Assembly (NCBI GenBank): GCA_035275405.1
Contig: DATEMU010000015.1
Location: forward strand, 186,001 to 250,000
Length of the DNA: 64,000 nt
DNA from: Phycisphaerae bacterium
GTDB lineage: Bacteria > Planctomycetota > Phycisphaerae > UBA1845 > UTPLA1
Reading direction: 5' to 3'
Each line of letters opens with the position of its first letter. Position 1 is the first letter of the stretch. A program made the translations under genes and the position numbers. The notes under the pieces were generated by a model. The model was not told the DNA's origin. It was given only the letters and a program-made list of their open reading frames with translations, and did not search any database. Of the stretch, positions 13,844-28,804 are shown piece by piece.

Positions 13844-14668
13844 ATGAAGAAGTTTTTGATGGTAGCAGCACTGGTCGGCATGGTTGCCGCCCCCGCGTTT
13901 GCCGGTCTGGCCCCGGAGCCCGCGTCGAGTACGACGCTGAACACGGTCAGCATGAATGCCAGCCTTCGGTCGCCTGCGTACGCGCCGAACGATGCCGCTC
14001 ACGTGTATGACGGCATGACAACCGAAGTCGCGGGTCCGGAGAACCTGACGTATCAGGTCACCCAGAACCCCGCCTCGGGCGCGTTCTGCAACCTGATTCA
14101 CCTCAAGCCGGGCGCGACCTCGATCTCCTCGATCCATATCGTCCTCGACCAGCGGCCGGCGACGGCTGCCTGGACGTGGTCCATTGCGTTCCGCAATGAC
14201 GTCGGCGGCGCGGCCCCGATCGGTTCCTTCCTGACGACGCAGTCGCTGGGCTTCAGTGCCTGGTACGTCGTCGGTGGCATGCCCTTCGGTGGCGCTGGCC
14301 CGACGCTGTTCCAGTTCAGCTTGGGCGCGATTTCCGCCAACGTAGGCGCGACGACGTCCATCTGGGCGTGCGTGCAGGGCACCCAGCCCTTCCGCGTCCG
14401 CACCGGCAACGTCAGCGGCAATGAAGTCAACGGCAATCCCGGTGACGGCACCCCGACTTCGTTCTACATCGGCAGCGGCTCGGGCGTCTATGCCTCGAGC
14501 TACGGCGTCGGCATCGGCTCGGCGAGCCTGATGTCCTCGTTTACGTTTGCCGGTGGCGCCGGTCAAGTCGGCAACTGGCACATGGCCCTCGGTGGAGCTC
14601 CTGAGCCCGCGACGGCCGCCTTGCTCGGTCTGGTCGGCCTCGTCGCTCTGCGACGCCGCCGCGCCTAA
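13844..14668 (+). CDS. PEP-CTERM sorting-domain secreted protein
   Basis: A 274-residue exported protein. AGGAGG (13831-13836) lies seven bases before the ATG. MKKFLMVAALVGMVAAPAFA is a clear signal peptide (cleavage after residue 20). The C-terminus (~253-274) is a PEP-CTERM signal: PEPATAALLGLVGLVALRR followed by basic residues. Such proteins are processed by an exosortase and placed on the surface or in exopolysaccharide. The middle part is rich in Gly, Ser, Thr and Ala and gives no recognised enzyme domain. It is monocistronic, with its own promoter and a strong terminator. The exosortase is not in this window. Confidence 0.9.
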   Translation: MKKFLMVAALVGMVAAPAFAGLAPEPASSTTLNTVSMNASLRSPAYAPNDAAHVYDGMTTEVAGPENLTYQVTQNPASGAFCNLIHLKPGATSISSIHIVLDQRPATAAWTWSIAFRNDVGGAAPIGSFLTTQSLGFSAWYVVGGMPFGGAGPTLFQFSLGAISANVGATTSIWACVQGTQPFRVRTGNVSGNEVNGNPGDGTPTSFYIGSGSGVYASSYGVGIGSASLMSSFTFAGGAGQVGNWHMALGGAPEPATAALLGLVGLVALRRRRA

Positions 14669-14724: not shown

Positions 14725-14764
14725 CCCGCTCCGGTCCCGAAAGGTTCCGGAGCGGGTTTTTTTT
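14725..14764 (+). terminator. Intrinsic terminator of the PEP-CTERM gene
   Basis: CCCGCTCCGG (14725-14734) pairs perfectly with CCGGAGCGGG (14747-14756), and eight T residues follow at 14757-14764. It lies about 60 bases after the stop codon. Confidence 0.92.
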
Positions 14765-14951: not shown

Positions 14952-17429
14952 ATGTCCGAAACGGTTGCCCTTCCGAAGAAATCTAAGACCAAACGAAAAC
15001 CGCGGGCCTGGTGGCAGTGGGTGATCGGACTCCTGCTCATCGGGGTGGCGGTCTGGTCTTTTGCGCTTCGGTGGGTTCGTTCGAGCATGCCGGATTGGTT
15101 TATTCGGCTTGGCGCTCTTAAGACGGTTCCGCTACGAATTCCAGATGGAATGACCGAGGCGAGCGCCCTTCCTGCCCAGGCCGGATCATTGGCCGGCTAC
15201 AGCCTGTTGTTCATTACGCTTGATACGACGCGAGCCGACCGTATCGGGTGCTACGGGAACGAGGCGATCCAGACGCCCTTTATCGACGGCCTGGCGAAGA
15301 ACGGCGTCCTTTTTTCACGGGCGATTGCCGTCGGCCCGACGACGCTTCCATCCCACTCGTCCATGATGACAGGGCTCTTTCCCCATCACCACGAGGCCCG
15401 GGCCAACGGTTTCACGCGATTGCCCAACGACAAGACCACGCTCGCCGAAGTGCTGGGCGCCAAGGGCTATCAGACCGGGGGATTTGTGTCGGCGTTCGTG
15501 CTGGATGCCCGGTTCGGGATCGGCCAGGGCTTCAATGAATATGACGACAAGGTGGAGGAGAAATTGGATCGGGTCGCCACGCTGCGCGATCCGGAGCGCC
15601 GGGCGAACCATACCACCGACCGGGCAATCGCCTGGCTGGAGCATAAGAGCGACCAGCCGTTTTTTGCGTGGGTACACTACTTTGATCCGCACCAGCCCTA
15701 CACGCCTCCCCAGGAATTCGCTGATGCGTATCCGTTCTATTATGACGGCGAGATCGCGTTCGTCGATACGCAGATCGGTCGGCTCCTGCAGGCGCTCAAA
15801 GATCTCAAGGTGGCGGACAAGACGATCGTTGTCGTTATGGGGGATCATGGACAGGGGTTTCTCCAGCATTTCGAATTGACCCACGGCTTATTCGTCTATG
15901 ACTCCACGCTGCACGTACCGTTCGTGATGTCGTGGGGCGGGTGGAAGGGCGGCGGATTGCACATTCCCCGGGAAGTCTCCGGGGTCGATGTGATGCCGAC
16001 GGTCCTGTCCCTCCTGGGCGTTGCGGCCCCGGCGGGAGTGGACGGGGTGGACCTGACGAAGTCGCCGGCCGGTGCTGATCGGGCGATTCTCGGAGAGACA
16101 TTGGAGGGGCTGGATCAATACGCGGTGGCGCCCCTCCTCACTCTGCGGCAGGGCGGGATGAAATACATCTATGCCCCCGAACCGGAGCTTTATGACGTCC
16201 TGGCGGACCCGGATGAGGAACACAACCTGGTCGATGAACAGCCCGAGGTAGCGGCGAAACTCCGGAAGCTTCTCGAGCAGAATCATGGGGGCGACCTGGC
16301 GAAGGCGGCCTACATCAAGAACACCGAGCAGCTTTCGCCGGACGAGATTCGCCAGCTTCAGGCGCTGGGCTATGCGGGGAGCAGCCTGGGCGGGGCGCTG
16401 GTCCCCGGAGAGGGCTCGTTGCCGGATCCGAAATCGGTCGTCCGGCTCATCAAGCGCTGCGAACAGGCCTGGGAGATTTCCCAGGCGGAAGGGGTGGAGG
16501 CGGCGGTCCGGCACCTGGAGGAGATCGTCGACGAAGCGCCGGACTTCTACGCCGGGTATCGACTCCTGGCGACGTTTTTGCTGGATGCCAAGGACCACGA
16601 GCGATCGCTCAAGGCGCTGGAGCGGTGCCTGGAGATCCACCCGGATATTCCGTTTCCTCTGGTACACATTGCCCGTGCGCATTTCAAATCGGGCCGCGTG
16701 GAACAGGCGATCGAGTATTATGACAAGGCGATCAAGGCGAGTCCGGACCTCGTCGCGGCGCACCTAGAGCTGGGACGGATTCTTTTATCGCGGAACCAGC
16801 CGGCGATTGCGGTCGATCACCTGCTTAAGGCGTTTGTGCTCAGCCCGACGGATCAATCCTGCGTCGAGGCCATGGCGATGGCGATGGCCCGGTCGAACCG
16901 GCTGGAGGAGGCCGTGTCGCACCTGCGAACGCGGCTGCAACAAAACCCCGATCTGTTGGCCGTGCGAAACGCACTTTGTGGACTGCTGCTGGAGCAGAAA
17001 AAGTGTGAAGAAGTCATCGTGTTGATGCGCGAGGGGCTCAAGCGGCACCCGGGCCAGAACGATCTGACCCACAATCTGGCCTATGCGATCATCATGTGCA
17101 AGCTCCCGGACGCGCCGATGATCGAGGCCGCCGTGATGATGGAAAAACTCTGCGAGGAGACGGGCTATCAGACGCCTGAATACCTGCGAACGCTGGCCAT
17201 GGTTTATGCGGAATTGTTTAGAGTCGACGAAGCCATCGGCGTGGCAGAAAAGGGACTGGCCCTGGCCCAGGAAAAGGAACGACCCGTCCTGGTGGCCAAC
17301 CTCAAGGACCTATTAGCGATCTATCGCGAGATGAAGCGGCGGGGAATCTCCCCGATGAGCGGTAATAAGCCGGGCCTGACAGGGACGGCGCCCCCGACCA
17401 GCCAGCCCAGCGCTTCGCCGCAACCGTGA
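14952..17429 (+). CDS. Membrane-anchored sulfatase-like hydrolase with C-terminal TPRs (Thr at FGly site)
   Basis: An 825-residue protein: a basic N-terminus, one membrane segment (~21-39), a sulfatase/alkaline-phosphatase-superfamily domain (~80-470) and TPR repeats (~515-790). Metal ligands are visible as D91 in ITLDTTRADRIGCYG and DH in VMGDHGQGF (~297). At the formylglycine motif, normally CxPSR followed by ASLLTG, it has TLPSHSSMMTG: T131 replaces Cys and H135 replaces Arg. Classical sulfatase chemistry is therefore unlikely; a Thr nucleophile is known in other members of the superfamily, such as phosphoethanolamine transferases. Substrate unknown. A related gene follows. Confidence 0.85.
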   Translation: MSETVALPKKSKTKRKPRAWWQWVIGLLLIGVAVWSFALRWVRSSMPDWFIRLGALKTVPLRIPDGMTEASALPAQAGSLAGYSLLFITLDTTRADRIGCYGNEAIQTPFIDGLAKNGVLFSRAIAVGPTTLPSHSSMMTGLFPHHHEARANGFTRLPNDKTTLAEVLGAKGYQTGGFVSAFVLDARFGIGQGFNEYDDKVEEKLDRVATLRDPERRANHTTDRAIAWLEHKSDQPFFAWVHYFDPHQPYTPPQEFADAYPFYYDGEIAFVDTQIGRLLQALKDLKVADKTIVVVMGDHGQGFLQHFELTHGLFVYDSTLHVPFVMSWGGWKGGGLHIPREVSGVDVMPTVLSLLGVAAPAGVDGVDLTKSPAGADRAILGETLEGLDQYAVAPLLTLRQGGMKYIYAPEPELYDVLADPDEEHNLVDEQPEVAAKLRKLLEQNHGGDLAKAAYIKNTEQLSPDEIRQLQALGYAGSSLGGALVPGEGSLPDPKSVVRLIKRCEQAWEISQAEGVEAAVRHLEEIVDEAPDFYAGYRLLATFLLDAKDHERSLKALERCLEIHPDIPFPLVHIARAHFKSGRVEQAIEYYDKAIKASPDLVAAHLELGRILLSRNQPAIAVDHLLKAFVLSPTDQSCVEAMAMAMARSNRLEEAVSHLRTRLQQNPDLLAVRNALCGLLLEQKKCEEVIVLMREGLKRHPGQNDLTHNLAYAIIMCKLPDAPMIEAAVMMEKLCEETGYQTPEYLRTLAMVYAELFRVDEAIGVAEKGLALAQEKERPVLVANLKDLLAIYREMKRRGISPMSGNKPGLTGTAPPTSQPSASPQP

Positions 17430-17498
17430 GTAGGACCTGGGCGATCCGGGGCCGCGGTTCCCGCACAGCGCTCGCATGATACAGGACCGAACTTTGTG

Positions 17499-20375
17499 AT
17501 GCTGAGGAGCGGAAAGCGATCCCTGATCCTGTTGGCCTCGTTGGCCGCAATGGTCCTTTGCTGGGCCGTGGGGTGTAAGCCGAGCGACGAGTCCGGCACA
17601 TCCGCCGAAGGTGCGAACGGCCCGACCTCGACCGCGCCTGGAGCCAAGACGGTCTCGACCGCTCGGCTCGCGCTGCCTGCGCGGCCCGGTCTCAATGTGC
17701 TTTTTGTGTCGGTCGACACCACGCGCCCCGACTATCTCGGGTGCTACGGCCGCACCACTGCAAAGACGCCCAACATCGATCGTCTGGCCGCCGAGGGGAC
17801 GCGCTTCGCGACGTGCATCAGTTCGATGCCGCTGACGCTGGGATCACACTGTACGATGCTGACCGGTTCCTATCAGTACGTGCACGGCGCCCGTGAAAAC
17901 GGCATCTTTTCGCTCTGCGACAACAATCAAACGCTTGCCGAAGTCCTTCGCGATCGCGGCTACGCGACGCGGGCGGAGGTCGCCACGGTCATTCTCGACA
18001 AGAAATACGGAACGGACCAGGGTTTCGAGCATTATGGCCAGGTTGCGGCGCCGTCCGAGGAGCAGGTGGAATTAGCAGCGTTCGGAAAGCGCGACTCGCC
18101 GATCCCTACCGCGACCAGTCAACCGATGAAGGTGGATGAGCAATACCTTGGAGTCGAGCGGACCGCGGGACAGGTCGCCGATCAGGTGATTGAAGGTCTG
18201 GAATCGCTGGCACAAGGATCCAAGCCGTTCTTTTTCTTTGTGCACTGTTATGACCCGCATTGGCCGTTTAGCGCCCCCGAGGCCTTCGCCAAGCTGTTTC
18301 CCGATGATCCCTATTCCGCCGAACTCTCTTATTTCGATACGCAATTGGGCAGGATGCTGGACGCGCTGAGTCGGCTGGGGTTGGACGACAAGACGCTGGT
18401 GATCCTCACGTCCGATCACGGCGAGGGCAAGGGTCAACATGGAGAGTTCACGCACGGCTCTTTCCTGTACGATGCCACGCTGCATGTGCCGCTCGTCCTG
18501 CGTTGTAAGGGGCTCATTCCGGCCGGGCAGGTGGTCGAGTCGCAGGTGCGTCTGGTCGACCTGGCGGAGACCATTCTGGAGTTGGCCGGCCTGGGCGCGG
18601 CCCGAACGAAGCAAATGCAGGGGACGAGTCTGGCGCCGCTGCTGTCCGATCCACGCCTGGATTTGAACCTGATGTGTTACTCGGACACGATCGTCCCCAA
18701 GACGACGTACGGCTTTTCGCCGCTGCGCTCACTGCGGACGCAGGAGTGGAAGTACATCCTGGCCCCGGTCCCGGAACTGTACCACCTCAAAGGCGACGGC
18801 CTGGAGTTATTCAATGTCAGCGGCGAGCGGTCGGATCTCGCCATGGCGATGCGCCAGCAGCTTTGGAACGTCATCAAGGATTCGCCGAGCCCGGCGTGCG
18901 AAGGGGCGACGATTCAGGCGGCGGACAAGAAGTCGTTGACGGCGTTGCGGGCCCTGGGCTACATCGGTTCGACGACCGCGCTGGACGATTTCGCATCGGG
19001 AACCGAACTGGATCGATTCGAGCCGCGGGGAGTCAACCCGCGCGAACACGTGGAAGAAATGGAGCTGATGTGCGGAGCACTGGGCACCCTTCGCTTCGGC
19101 TACTTTGAAGAAGCCGAAAAAATGTTGCGGCGGCTCCACGCGCTGCTTCCGGATCATGCCATGGTCGCCAGTTCCCTCGGCACGGCTCTGGCGGCGCTCA
19201 AGAAGTATGAAGAGGCGGAGACGGTGATTCAACGGTCGGTCCAACTGGCGCCGGATGACGCCGCGGAGTTGGCCCGCCTGGGAGGCGTTCAGGCCATCCT
19301 GAAGAAATACAAGGCGTCCGAGGCGTCGTCACGAAAAGCGACCGAACTGGATCCTCAAAACGCTTCTGCATGGGGCAACCTCGGGGCCGTCCTCTTATTC
19401 CAGGGACGCCATGAGGAAGCGATGTCTCCGCTGACGAAAGCAGACCAGCTCTCGTCCCGATTGGCACCGGTTATCGCCATGATCGGCGAGGTCCATCGCG
19501 TGGCCAAGCGATTCGAGCCGGCGATGGCCGAGTACCAAAGAGCCCTGGGAATTGACCGGAAGGTGCTTCGGGCCCAGAACGGAATAGGGCTGATCCTGTT
19601 GGAAGAGGGCAAAGTGGATGACGCCATCGAACATTACTCGAAGGCGGTCGAGCTTCTTCCGCAGGAGACGATCCTCGCGAGTCAACTCGCCCGATGCTAT
19701 TCGCTCAAAGGTCAGCCGGAAAAGGCCATCGAAGTACTGAAGCGTTTGACCGAGAGCAACCCCAAAATAGTCGAGGGATTCGTGGTTCTGGCGTCACAGC
19801 TGCGAGCGTTGAAGCGCGCTTCCGAGGCCGTGGACGCACTGCAAAAAGCGATCGAGTTGGCGCCGGATCGCCCACAGGCGCACTTTCAACTGGCCGGTGC
19901 GTTACACGAGGCCGGCCGGCCCAAGGAATCCCTGGCGGCCTACGACCGCGTGTTGACCCAATGGCCGGAGCAGCAAGCGGCGTATCGATCGGCGGCGCGG
20001 GTGGCGCTGGAACTGAAGCAGACGGCGAAGGCGATCGAGATACTGGACCGGGGGGCGAAGCGATTCGAGGATGATGCGAACATCGTCAACGACCTGGCGT
20101 GGCTTCTGGCGACATCCTCGGATTCGCGACTTCGTGACGGTCGGCGGGCGCTGGCGCTGGCGGAGCGAAACAGCATGTTGGCGGATCATCACGACGCCAA
20201 CCGACTGGACACGCTGGCGGCGGCGTACGCGGAGGTCGGTAATTTTGAGAAGGCGCGGTCGACGCTGGATCGCGCGATCGAATTGGCCGAGCCGTCCGGC
20301 GAAAAATCGCTGGTGGAAGAACTCAAGATGCGGCGCGACTTGTACGAGCGCGCTCAGCCGTTTCGCAGCCATTAG
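17499..20375 (+). CDS. Sulfatase-like lipoprotein with C-terminal TPRs (Thr at FGly site)
   Basis: A 958-residue paralogue of the preceding protein (ATG chosen; a GTG three bases upstream is equivalent). It has a lipoprotein signal ending WAVGC with C26 as the lipid site, then a low-complexity Ser/Thr linker. The hydrolase domain starts at VSVDTTRPDYLGCYG (D73) and includes SDHGEGKGQHGEFTHG (~304). The formylglycine motif is replaced by TLGSHCTMLTG, with T113 at the nucleophile position and H117 for Arg. TPR repeats cover ~510-940. It begins 69 bases after its neighbour and is probably cotranscribed from the sigma54 promoter. Location: periplasmic face, lipid-anchored (inference). Confidence 0.85.
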   Translation: MLRSGKRSLILLASLAAMVLCWAVGCKPSDESGTSAEGANGPTSTAPGAKTVSTARLALPARPGLNVLFVSVDTTRPDYLGCYGRTTAKTPNIDRLAAEGTRFATCISSMPLTLGSHCTMLTGSYQYVHGARENGIFSLCDNNQTLAEVLRDRGYATRAEVATVILDKKYGTDQGFEHYGQVAAPSEEQVELAAFGKRDSPIPTATSQPMKVDEQYLGVERTAGQVADQVIEGLESLAQGSKPFFFFVHCYDPHWPFSAPEAFAKLFPDDPYSAELSYFDTQLGRMLDALSRLGLDDKTLVILTSDHGEGKGQHGEFTHGSFLYDATLHVPLVLRCKGLIPAGQVVESQVRLVDLAETILELAGLGAARTKQMQGTSLAPLLSDPRLDLNLMCYSDTIVPKTTYGFSPLRSLRTQEWKYILAPVPELYHLKGDGLELFNVSGERSDLAMAMRQQLWNVIKDSPSPACEGATIQAADKKSLTALRALGYIGSTTALDDFASGTELDRFEPRGVNPREHVEEMELMCGALGTLRFGYFEEAEKMLRRLHALLPDHAMVASSLGTALAALKKYEEAETVIQRSVQLAPDDAAELARLGGVQAILKKYKASEASSRKATELDPQNASAWGNLGAVLLFQGRHEEAMSPLTKADQLSSRLAPVIAMIGEVHRVAKRFEPAMAEYQRALGIDRKVLRAQNGIGLILLEEGKVDDAIEHYSKAVELLPQETILASQLARCYSLKGQPEKAIEVLKRLTESNPKIVEGFVVLASQLRALKRASEAVDALQKAIELAPDRPQAHFQLAGALHEAGRPKESLAAYDRVLTQWPEQQAAYRSAARVALELKQTAKAIEILDRGAKRFEDDANIVNDLAWLLATSSDSRLRDGRRALALAERNSMLADHHDANRLDTLAAAYAEVGNFEKARSTLDRAIELAEPSGEKSLVEELKMRRDLYERAQPFRSH

Positions 20376-27376: not shown

Positions 27377-28804
27377 ATGGGTCAAACGATGGACGAGGGT
27401 GCGTCGCTGCATCGACTGAGCGAGGCTCTGCGAGCCGCGTTCGCCGCGCACGGTCAGCCGAAGGGCCGCATCGAGATGGCCCAGGCGCCGGGCGCCGTGG
27501 ATGTCATGGGGGGGCTTTGTGAAGACCGGGGGTCGCTGGTCCTGACGACCACGCTGGCCCTGGCGATCCGGGCGGTTGTGTGGGAGTCGGGCGGGTCTGA
27601 GGTTCGCCTCCGGTTGGATTCTCCTGGGAATGGGGATACCGCCAGCGAAATCAAGTTTGGCGTTTCTGCTTTCGCCGCTCCTGATGCGGATTCGGGGAGT
27701 CTCAGCGAGCGTTGCCGGCTTGCCGGAGCAGAGTGGGCGGCTCCGGCCTGCCTGGTGATGCATCGAGCGTTTTCTGAAAAGACCCTCCCCCAACCATCCG
27801 CCGGCCTCACAATTCTGTTGCAATCCGATTTTCCGGCGGACGCCGACCTGGGCCGGCCGTGTGCGACGGCGACGGCTGTGCTCGACGGGCTCTGCAAACT
27901 TTATGGCAAGACCGTTGAGCCTTGGAAGCGGGCGACGATGGCTTCCGAAGCGGCCATGCCGCTCACAGGACTGCGCCGGGTTCGAGCGGCCATGACGGCG
28001 TTTTGCGGAAAGGGAGACGGCGCGCTGATGCAGATGCGCTTCCGTCCCCAACCCGAGTGCGAACCGCTCACCCTTCCCAATGGCGTGACGATGGCGGTCG
28101 TACGAACCCAATTAGACCGGCCGACCAAACGCGAACGTTTGCTGGAAACGAAGTTGTGCGCGGAGATGGGCGAGCGGATGATCCACCAGCTCCGCGCGCG
28201 CGACGGGATGTCTCCGGAGAAGGCCCAGGCGCTCCTGGCGGCGATTTCGCCGGTCGACTATGTTGAGAACTATCGCAACCGCCTGCCATTGAAGATCTCC
28301 GGAAAGGCCTTCACGGCGTCGTTCGGGGACTTTCGCGGGTTGGACGGGGAGGCGAATGGCAAAGCCGTTTACAAGGTACGCTCGCGGCTGGAACACCACA
28401 TCTACGAAAACCAGCGCGTACAGGAATTCGTGTCGTTCATCGCCCTGGCCCGGCGGACCGGGGCAGCCAGTGCGTTGATTGAGGCGGGTGAGCGGATGTA
28501 TGCCTCCCATTGGAGCTACAGCCAGCGCTGTGGAATTGGCGGGGCGGAAGCGGATCGGATTACGCAGTGCGTTCGACGGCGCGGGGCGGAAGCAGGGCTC
28601 TTTGGGGCCAAGGTGACCGGGGGGGGGGCCGGAGGCGAAGTGGTCGTGCTGATGCGCAACGACGAGCGGGCGCGAGCGGCATTGGCCGAGGCGATTCAGG
28701 AAGCGGGAGAGTCCACGAATCGACCGATCGAGATTCACCAGGGGTCGCTGTGCGGGGCCGAGGCCTTCAAGCCGCCGGATTTGGCCGCGATGATGGTGCC
28801 ATAA
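27377..28804 (+). CDS. GHMP-family sugar kinase (galactokinase/arabinokinase-like)
   Basis: A 475-residue GHMP kinase. Motif 1 near residue 37 is APGAVDVMGGLCEDRGSLVL, aligned with the galactokinase APGRVNLIGEHTDY segment but lacking GEHTDY. Motif 3 near residue 410 is FGAKVTGGGAGGEVVVL. The stretch YASHWSYSQRCGIGGAEADR resembles plant L-arabinokinase and galactokinase relatives. The phosphate-binding second motif is less clear (the DLGRPCATATAVLDGL region). Substrate is uncertain: arabinose, galactose or another sugar; the altered motif 1 argues against a standard galactokinase. No leloir-pathway gene is nearby. It starts 45 bases after the BFN gene. Confidence 0.78.
   Translation: MGQTMDEGASLHRLSEALRAAFAAHGQPKGRIEMAQAPGAVDVMGGLCEDRGSLVLTTTLALAIRAVVWESGGSEVRLRLDSPGNGDTASEIKFGVSAFAAPDADSGSLSERCRLAGAEWAAPACLVMHRAFSEKTLPQPSAGLTILLQSDFPADADLGRPCATATAVLDGLCKLYGKTVEPWKRATMASEAAMPLTGLRRVRAAMTAFCGKGDGALMQMRFRPQPECEPLTLPNGVTMAVVRTQLDRPTKRERLLETKLCAEMGERMIHQLRARDGMSPEKAQALLAAISPVDYVENYRNRLPLKISGKAFTASFGDFRGLDGEANGKAVYKVRSRLEHHIYENQRVQEFVSFIALARRTGAASALIEAGERMYASHWSYSQRCGIGGAEADRITQCVRRRGAEAGLFGAKVTGGGAGGEVVVLMRNDERARAALAEAIQEAGESTNRPIEIHQGSLCGAEAFKPPDLAAMMVP

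Follow-up and report, generated by a model that had tools for sequence, protein, structure and literature searches.

Two tandem TPR-bearing sulfatase-fold proteins of a Phycisphaerae bacterium probably act on phosphate esters through a threonine nucleophile

Introduction

Two adjacent genes in a 64,000-nucleotide stretch of a Phycisphaerae genome (the whole of which is here referred to as the window) encode P1 and P2, proteins in which a sulfatase-fold domain is followed by tetratricopeptide repeats (TPRs) and in which threonine stands in place of the formylglycine (FGly)-forming cysteine. Judged from their sequences, P1 and P2 are probably metal-dependent enzymes that act outside the cytoplasm; as members of the alkaline-phosphatase superfamily, they would employ this threonine as a nucleophile on a phosphate ester, and not an FGly on a sulfate ester, and for both of them the label sulfatase is almost certainly wrong. 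In 2016, the SulfAtlas paper listed 30 of the 59 PF00884 seed sequences with Thr at the nucleophile place, none of them proven sulfatases (PMC5066984). Since the presence of Thr in many PF00884 proteins has been published, P1 and P2 represent an uncharacterised variant and not a new kind of protein; a characterised TPR-bearing sulfatase-like protein with Thr was not found in the literature searched. New here are the agreement with EptA/MCR at individual residues, the sharp separation from the Cys type, the wide spread of the TPR clade, and the conservation of the locus.

Many soil and aquatic bacterial genomes carry Thr-type proteins, which would be labelled as sulfatases on the basis of a PF00884 match alone, and sulfatase counts serve to infer polysaccharide degradation. 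A simple residue test, namely Thr with His at +4, H-x4-H, and His at +13 of DHG, sorts the Thr types from the sulfatases at once.

Gene organization, domains and predicted structure

P1 and P2 are encoded on a common strand and are separated by a gap of 66 bp; the coordinates and strand of both open reading frames (ORFs) were verified. The main features are as follows, with family sites given in P1 numbering.

P1, 14952..17429, + strand: 825 aa; single N-in transmembrane (TM) anchor, Thr-type sulfatase-fold domain at about 80-475, linker, and at least five TPRs
P2, 17496..20375, + strand: 959 aa; lipoprotein signal, Thr-type sulfatase-fold domain at about 60-470, and a TPR array of about 12 helix pairs (515-951)
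T131 codon of P1 (TLPSH), 15342..15344, + strand: predicted nucleophile
T114 codon of P2 (TLGSH; TLVSH in P2 orthologs), 17835..17837, + strand
P1 D91-T-T-R-A-D96, 15222..15239, + strand: putative metal-ligand Asp, with Thr replacing the second Asp/Gln of sulfatases
P1 H242-Y-F-D245-P-H247, 15675..15692, + strand: candidate H-x4-H site with Asp245
P1 D298-H299-G ... H311, 15843..15884, + strand: putative metal Asp/His, with His at +13 replacing the sulfatase Lys

The Thr of P2 is T114 when counted from GTG 17496 and T113 when counted from the directly following ATG 17499; the latter count was used in the original prediction, whose TLPSH and TLGSH motifs were borne out. PF00884 (Sulfatase) is matched with 155 bits by P1 and 140 bits by P2 (cut-off 25), and the TPRs are C-terminal in both. 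PF01663 (Phosphodiest) is also matched above its cut-off of 23, with 58 bits for P1 and 60 bits for P2, and the best NCBIfam models over the catalytic part (arylsulfatase, choline-sulfatase, PehA, and Mn arylsulfatase) all score far below their cut-offs. The ORFs, PF00884 scores, and T131/T114 motifs agree with the tandem of sulfatase-fold and TPR proteins with Thr at the FGly Cys position that had been proposed. The proposal of one membrane-anchored and one lipoprotein member likewise stands by sequence, and the arrangement is kept in orthologs: P1 starts with a basic stretch and one TM helix (RAWWQWVIGLLLIG...), an anchor retained in all P1 orthologs when the sequences were read by eye, and P2 carries a lipobox-like AVG-C, for which its orthologs, read in the same way, have IGA-C, VPG-C, AAG-C, or PLG-C.

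The P1 catalytic domain was modelled with AlphaFold2 from 101 sequences (mean pLDDT 91.5, pTM 0.93), and in this model a helix is predicted to begin with T131 (T61 of the modelled stretch). The full-length P2 model (pLDDT 88.9, pTM 0.78), from which the TPR helix pairs were counted, places T114 as the first residue of the predicted helix 114-123. The N-terminus of a helix is the usual place of the nucleophile in the alkaline-phosphatase superfamily. Likewise, C61 of the Mn-dependent arylsulfatase EfAS lies at a helix N-terminus (PMC12421950). Structure prediction, which had been suggested as a check, thus has the Thr of both proteins heading what appears to be a nucleophile-type helix. The top Foldseek matches of the P1 model were FGly sulfatases and phosphonate monoester hydrolases (PMHs), with a TM-score of about 0.7, and the top profile matches in the PDB were also all sulfatases/PMHs, not EptA or nucleotide pyrophosphatase/phosphodiesterases (NPP). 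EfAS (9koq), a close structure match, was considered as a possible Thr sulfatase and was ruled out, as its nucleophile is Cys/FGly.

P1 and P2 lack the residues that define FGly sulfatases

With FGly sulfatases (SulfAtlas S1) and PMHs (S1_0), P1 and P2 have in common the fold, PF00884, the first Asp, the DHG/DNG Asp, the His of PHxP, and the C-terminal sub-domain LYDLxxDPxExxNL; they differ in having no C/S-x-P/A-x-R, second Asp/Gln, or GKxH, and in having His for Lys at +13. These differences were assessed in 154 Thr-type and 25 Cys/Ser-type sequences. Position 92 is T/S/C in Thr types and D/Q/E in Cys types (24/25), so the D-D or D-Q pair that binds Ca/Mn is absent from P1 and P2, which have D-T instead. 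Position 94 is R in most Thr types and mixed in Cys types, position 135 is H in Thr types and R in all 25 Cys types, and 242 H and 245 D are present in Thr types and in none of the 25 Cys types. Position 299 is H in Thr types and N/H in Cys types, while H at position 311 characterizes Thr types and occurs in a single one of the 25 Cys types. Counted by motif, GKxH was found in 2/153 Thr types against 24/25 Cys types, and the residue at +13 from the DHG/DNG Asp is His in 135/153 Thr types and Lys in 16/25 Cys types. The C/S-x-P/A-x-R motif is absent from the TPR clade: the first residue is T in 119/119, and none has the Arg of CxPxR. In EfAS, Q21, C61, R65, K110, H112, and K324 (+13 from D311) all matter when mutated (PMC12421950), and each of these six is replaced in the Thr family.

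The remaining PF00884 proteins of the source genome (5.3 Mb) are four Cys sulfatases (CSPTR, CTAGR, CSPTR, and CNASR) along with a single NPP-like protein that carries Thr (TYPNT), which indicates that the Thr described here is specific to P1 and P2 and is no effect of assembly or annotation. One of the Cys sulfatases is adjoined by a protein of the FGly-generating enzyme (FGE) family, so normal sulfatases are present besides P1 and P2. It is very improbable that P1 and P2 are true sulfatases as well, acting via Thr itself or another modified residue: the sulfatase fold would be in line with this, but every sulfatase-specific residue is replaced, conversion of Thr to FGly has never been demonstrated (PMC5066984), and the genome has its ordinary Cys sulfatases and FGE-type protein elsewhere. 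A PF00884 search of the source genome returned no LTA-synthase/EptA-like protein. In other genomes of the family, such proteins with a GTSNPS motif are encoded at L039 1183-3525 (- strand) and L041 703-2949.

The threonine is invariant in a widespread TPR clade

Fifteen relatives within the order, chosen by a motif that included Thr, were aligned first, and the D, Thr, several His, and DHG were invariant among them. For a wider sample, 84,980 species genomes were scanned with two peptide patterns, neither of which touches the Thr site or the H135, H299, and H311 sites, yielding at least 588 matching stretches; the TPR-clade set also took in paralogs and tandem neighbours retrieved by similarity. 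The T131 site is Thr in 119/119 TPR-clade members examined, and D298 is likewise among the residues common to all 119. H135, H242, D/E245, H247, H299, and H311 are each found in 119/119, with the counts for H242, D245, and H247 being partly selected in the scanned loci, since one pattern (FxWxHxFDPH) holds these residues. The objection that Thr might not be conserved in the clade therefore falls.

P1 and P2 fit a Thr-type PF00884-TPR pattern consisting of DTxRADR, TLP[SA]H, WxHxFDPH, DHGExxGEHxExTHG, and C-terminal TPRs. They had been viewed as a peculiar pair; instead, they are two members of a broad family, with Acidobacteriota, Aminicenantes, Planctomycetota, Myxococcales/Deltaproteobacteria, Gemmatimonadetes, Hydrogenedentota, and others named among the matches listed. 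The family to which P1 and P2 belong consists of uncharacterised proteins, annotated as 'sulfatase' or 'tetratricopeptide repeat', from Acidobacteriota, Aminicenantes, Planctomycetota, and other groups, which have the same residue set and architecture and show no essential difference from the pair; in the P2 subgroup, the P of TLPSH is replaced by G or V. Thr-type genes occur in tandem in 11/81 loci.

Could the domain be a dead sulfatase, retained as a TPR-bearing scaffold or binding protein? The loss of the sulfatase nucleophile and the large TPR arrays would suit such a role. Catalytically dead domains, however, usually lose metal ligands or the nucleophile, and this reading is unlikely because the metal ligands, Thr, and His set are invariant in 119 sequences from several phyla.

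An unrooted maximum-likelihood (ML) tree was made from 95 rows after removal of 13 active-site columns. Even without these columns, one change separates the Thr from the Cys types, so that the family-tree check against Cys sulfatases, as originally suggested, gives a Thr/Cys split on one branch. SH-aLRT support was 99 for the TPR clade, 100 for the P2 group, and 96 for the P1 group; a recent tandem duplication giving rise to P1 and P2 was rejected on the grounds that each belongs to its own supported group. The branches of EptA and of the genome's NPP-like protein are long.

Two further groupings were observed. One acidobacterial contig (L094 5909-14226) carries four clustered Thr-type genes on both strands, and additional Thr-type PF00884 groups occur in the same order (L032-L035 and L137-L156), mostly as shorter ORFs without long TPR tails and with many paralogs per genome; some of these groups are without H135 (TTPSI, TLPSF, and TRPSM).

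The predicted active-site residues match the plan of EptA and MCR-1

Replacement of E246, T285, H390, H395, D465, H466, or H478 of MCR-1 by Ala abolishes lipid A modification (PMC5893884), and the same is reported for several of these residues in a second study (PMC12658134). All seven have counterparts in P1, namely, D91, T131, H242, H247, D298, H299, and H311, among which H242/H247 would correspond to MCR-1 H390/H395 and H311 to H478 by sequence comparison. The full set is present in 143/153 Thr types and 0/25 Cys types. No counterpart of MCR-1 K333 was identified in the family.

The local spacing of H-x4-H and D-x12-H is identical to that of E. coli EptA. When the family profile was aligned with E. 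coli EptA (hhalign), WVHYFDPHQP paired gap-free with VLHTIGSHGP and DHGQGFLQHFELTHG with DHGESLGENGIYLHG, and DTTRAD paired with EptA ETSRAE; around the nucleophile, the alignment with this single EptA sequence puts Thr one residue off. P1 and P2 resemble EptA/MCR-1 in the Thr nucleophile, D/E-T-x-R-A-D/E, H-x4-H, and DHG with His at +13, and differ from them by Asp for Glu as first ligand, the extra D245 (G in EptA) and H135, and the TPR array, while their overall sequence and fold are nearer to sulfatases. The EptA multi-helix N-terminal membrane domain is absent, P1 having a single TM helix and P2 being a lipoprotein, with no such Pfam domain in either. The invariance of Thr in the clade and the residue-by-residue likeness of the site to phosphoethanolamine transferases uphold the earlier view that it occupies the nucleophile position and is unable to give FGly.

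The sequences fit transfer and hydrolysis about equally well. As transferases, P1 and perhaps P2 would resemble EptA/MCR, OpgB, and LTA synthase and would move phosphoethanolamine or phosphoglycerol from a membrane phospholipid to a protein or glycan of the surface. The match to 7/7 essential EptA/MCR residues, a His plan that is the transferase plan, and the membrane anchor of P1 speak for this; the missing membrane domain for a lipid donor, the lipoprotein nature of P2, and the additional acidic residue D245 speak against it.

Comparison with NPP and proposed mechanism

The stretch TLPSHxSxxTGxxPxxHG aligns gap-free with the nucleophile stretch TYPNTVSLLTGRFPGHHG of the NPP-like protein of the genome, with Thr exactly on Thr. 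P1 and P2 are like NPP in having Thr at the matching place in T-x-P-x-x-x-S-x-x-TG and in matching PF01663 above its cut-off, and differ in second-metal spacing and in matching PF01663 more weakly than PF00884. In NPP, a D-x3-H pair and a further His are ligands of the second Zn, the pair being D326/H330 in NPP3 (PMC6052110); P1 has D245, H247, H242, and H311, but their spacing is unlike D-x3-H, which has no obvious counterpart at that spacing. About as likely as a transferase role is that P1 and P2 are hydrolases, i.e., NPP-like two-metal phosphodiesterases acting on a nucleotide, a phospholipid head group, or a teichoic-acid-like substrate. The PF01663 match in both proteins and the gap-free nucleophile stretch point this way, D245 could complete a second metal site, and the absent lipid-binding membrane domain and lipoprotein form of P2 count in favour of a diesterase; on the other hand, an obvious D-x3-H counterpart is lacking, the His pattern is that of EptA, and in the ML tree the TPR clade and the NPP-like protein, a long branch, stand apart.

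For P1 and P2 as Thr-dependent enzymes on phosphate esters, the following mechanism is proposed. D91, T131, D298, and H299 would hold the nucleophile metal, and H242, D245, H247, and H311 would form a second half-site, either for a second metal or for the phosphate/leaving group as in EptA/MCR-1. Thr would attack a phospho(di)ester, with the phospho-alcohol group being retained as phospho-Thr; in the second step, a transferase would hand the group to an acceptor and a phosphodiesterase would hand it to water. P1 would have its site of action at the inner membrane, P2 would act as a lipoprotein bound to a membrane, and the most likely role of the TPR superhelix is to bind the substrate or a partner protein. 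Should the Thr types prove to transfer phospho groups or to cleave phosphodiesters, simple assays could be applied to a large set of surface-modifying enzymes.

Genomic neighbourhood

A gene for a secreted PEP-CTERM protein lies upstream of P1, and its relatives are found next to P1 orthologs.

PEP-CTERM secreted protein of the window, 13844..14668, + strand: upstream of P1, a separate transcription unit by sequence
Intrinsic terminator (stem-loop followed by a T-run), 14726..14755, + strand: between the PEP-CTERM gene and P1
PEP-CTERM counterparts: L046 5840-6724; L047 14566-15489 (- strand); L048 5831-6679; L049 6449-7330

The order PEP-CTERM protein - P1 - P2 is kept in five genomes. Three genomes of a sister genus have uvrB - PEP-CTERM - P1 - P2 - (third copy in two) - purM - lysC - valS, with flanking gene names read from the translated sequences, and the genes for the PEP-CTERM protein, P1, and P2 lie side by side in one genome from a different family. 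The sequence of the PEP-CTERM neighbour changes fast and its position upstream of P1 is constant; all four neighbours tested passed the TIGR02595 cut-off, and besides one exosortase, at least 16 further PEP-CTERM matches occur in the source genome. A single operon of the PEP-CTERM gene and P1 was considered and rejected: co-transcription is unlikely because a strong terminator lies between them in 4/5 loci. The link of the PEP-CTERM gene to P1 and P2 as a conserved neighbour is suggestive only. For a transferase, a surface protein gene adjoining in five genomes is a point in favour, and the fact that this gene has its own terminator is a point against. More speculative, and unlikely in its entirety, is the idea that the family comprises phylum-spanning, TPR-guided phospho-alcohol transferases with an EptA-plan site on a sulfatase scaffold, which without the usual membrane domain would modify glycans or surface proteins, exosortase-sorted ones among them; P1 would then be the partner in the inner membrane and P2 the one in the outer membrane.

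A TMTC-like O-mannosyltransferase neighbour, seemingly present in 16 loci, was rejected, as this reflected clustering by TPR repeats and the motif was found in one locus. A GWxTD-TPR protein is encoded beside the Thr-type gene in eight Aminicenantes/Acidobacteria loci (L071, L078, L082, L083, L084, L086, L098, and L100), often together with a small CarboxypepD_reg-domain protein. Elsewhere in the window, positions 27377-28804 encode a GHMP-kinase-like protein with a weak galactokinase match, far below the cut-off.
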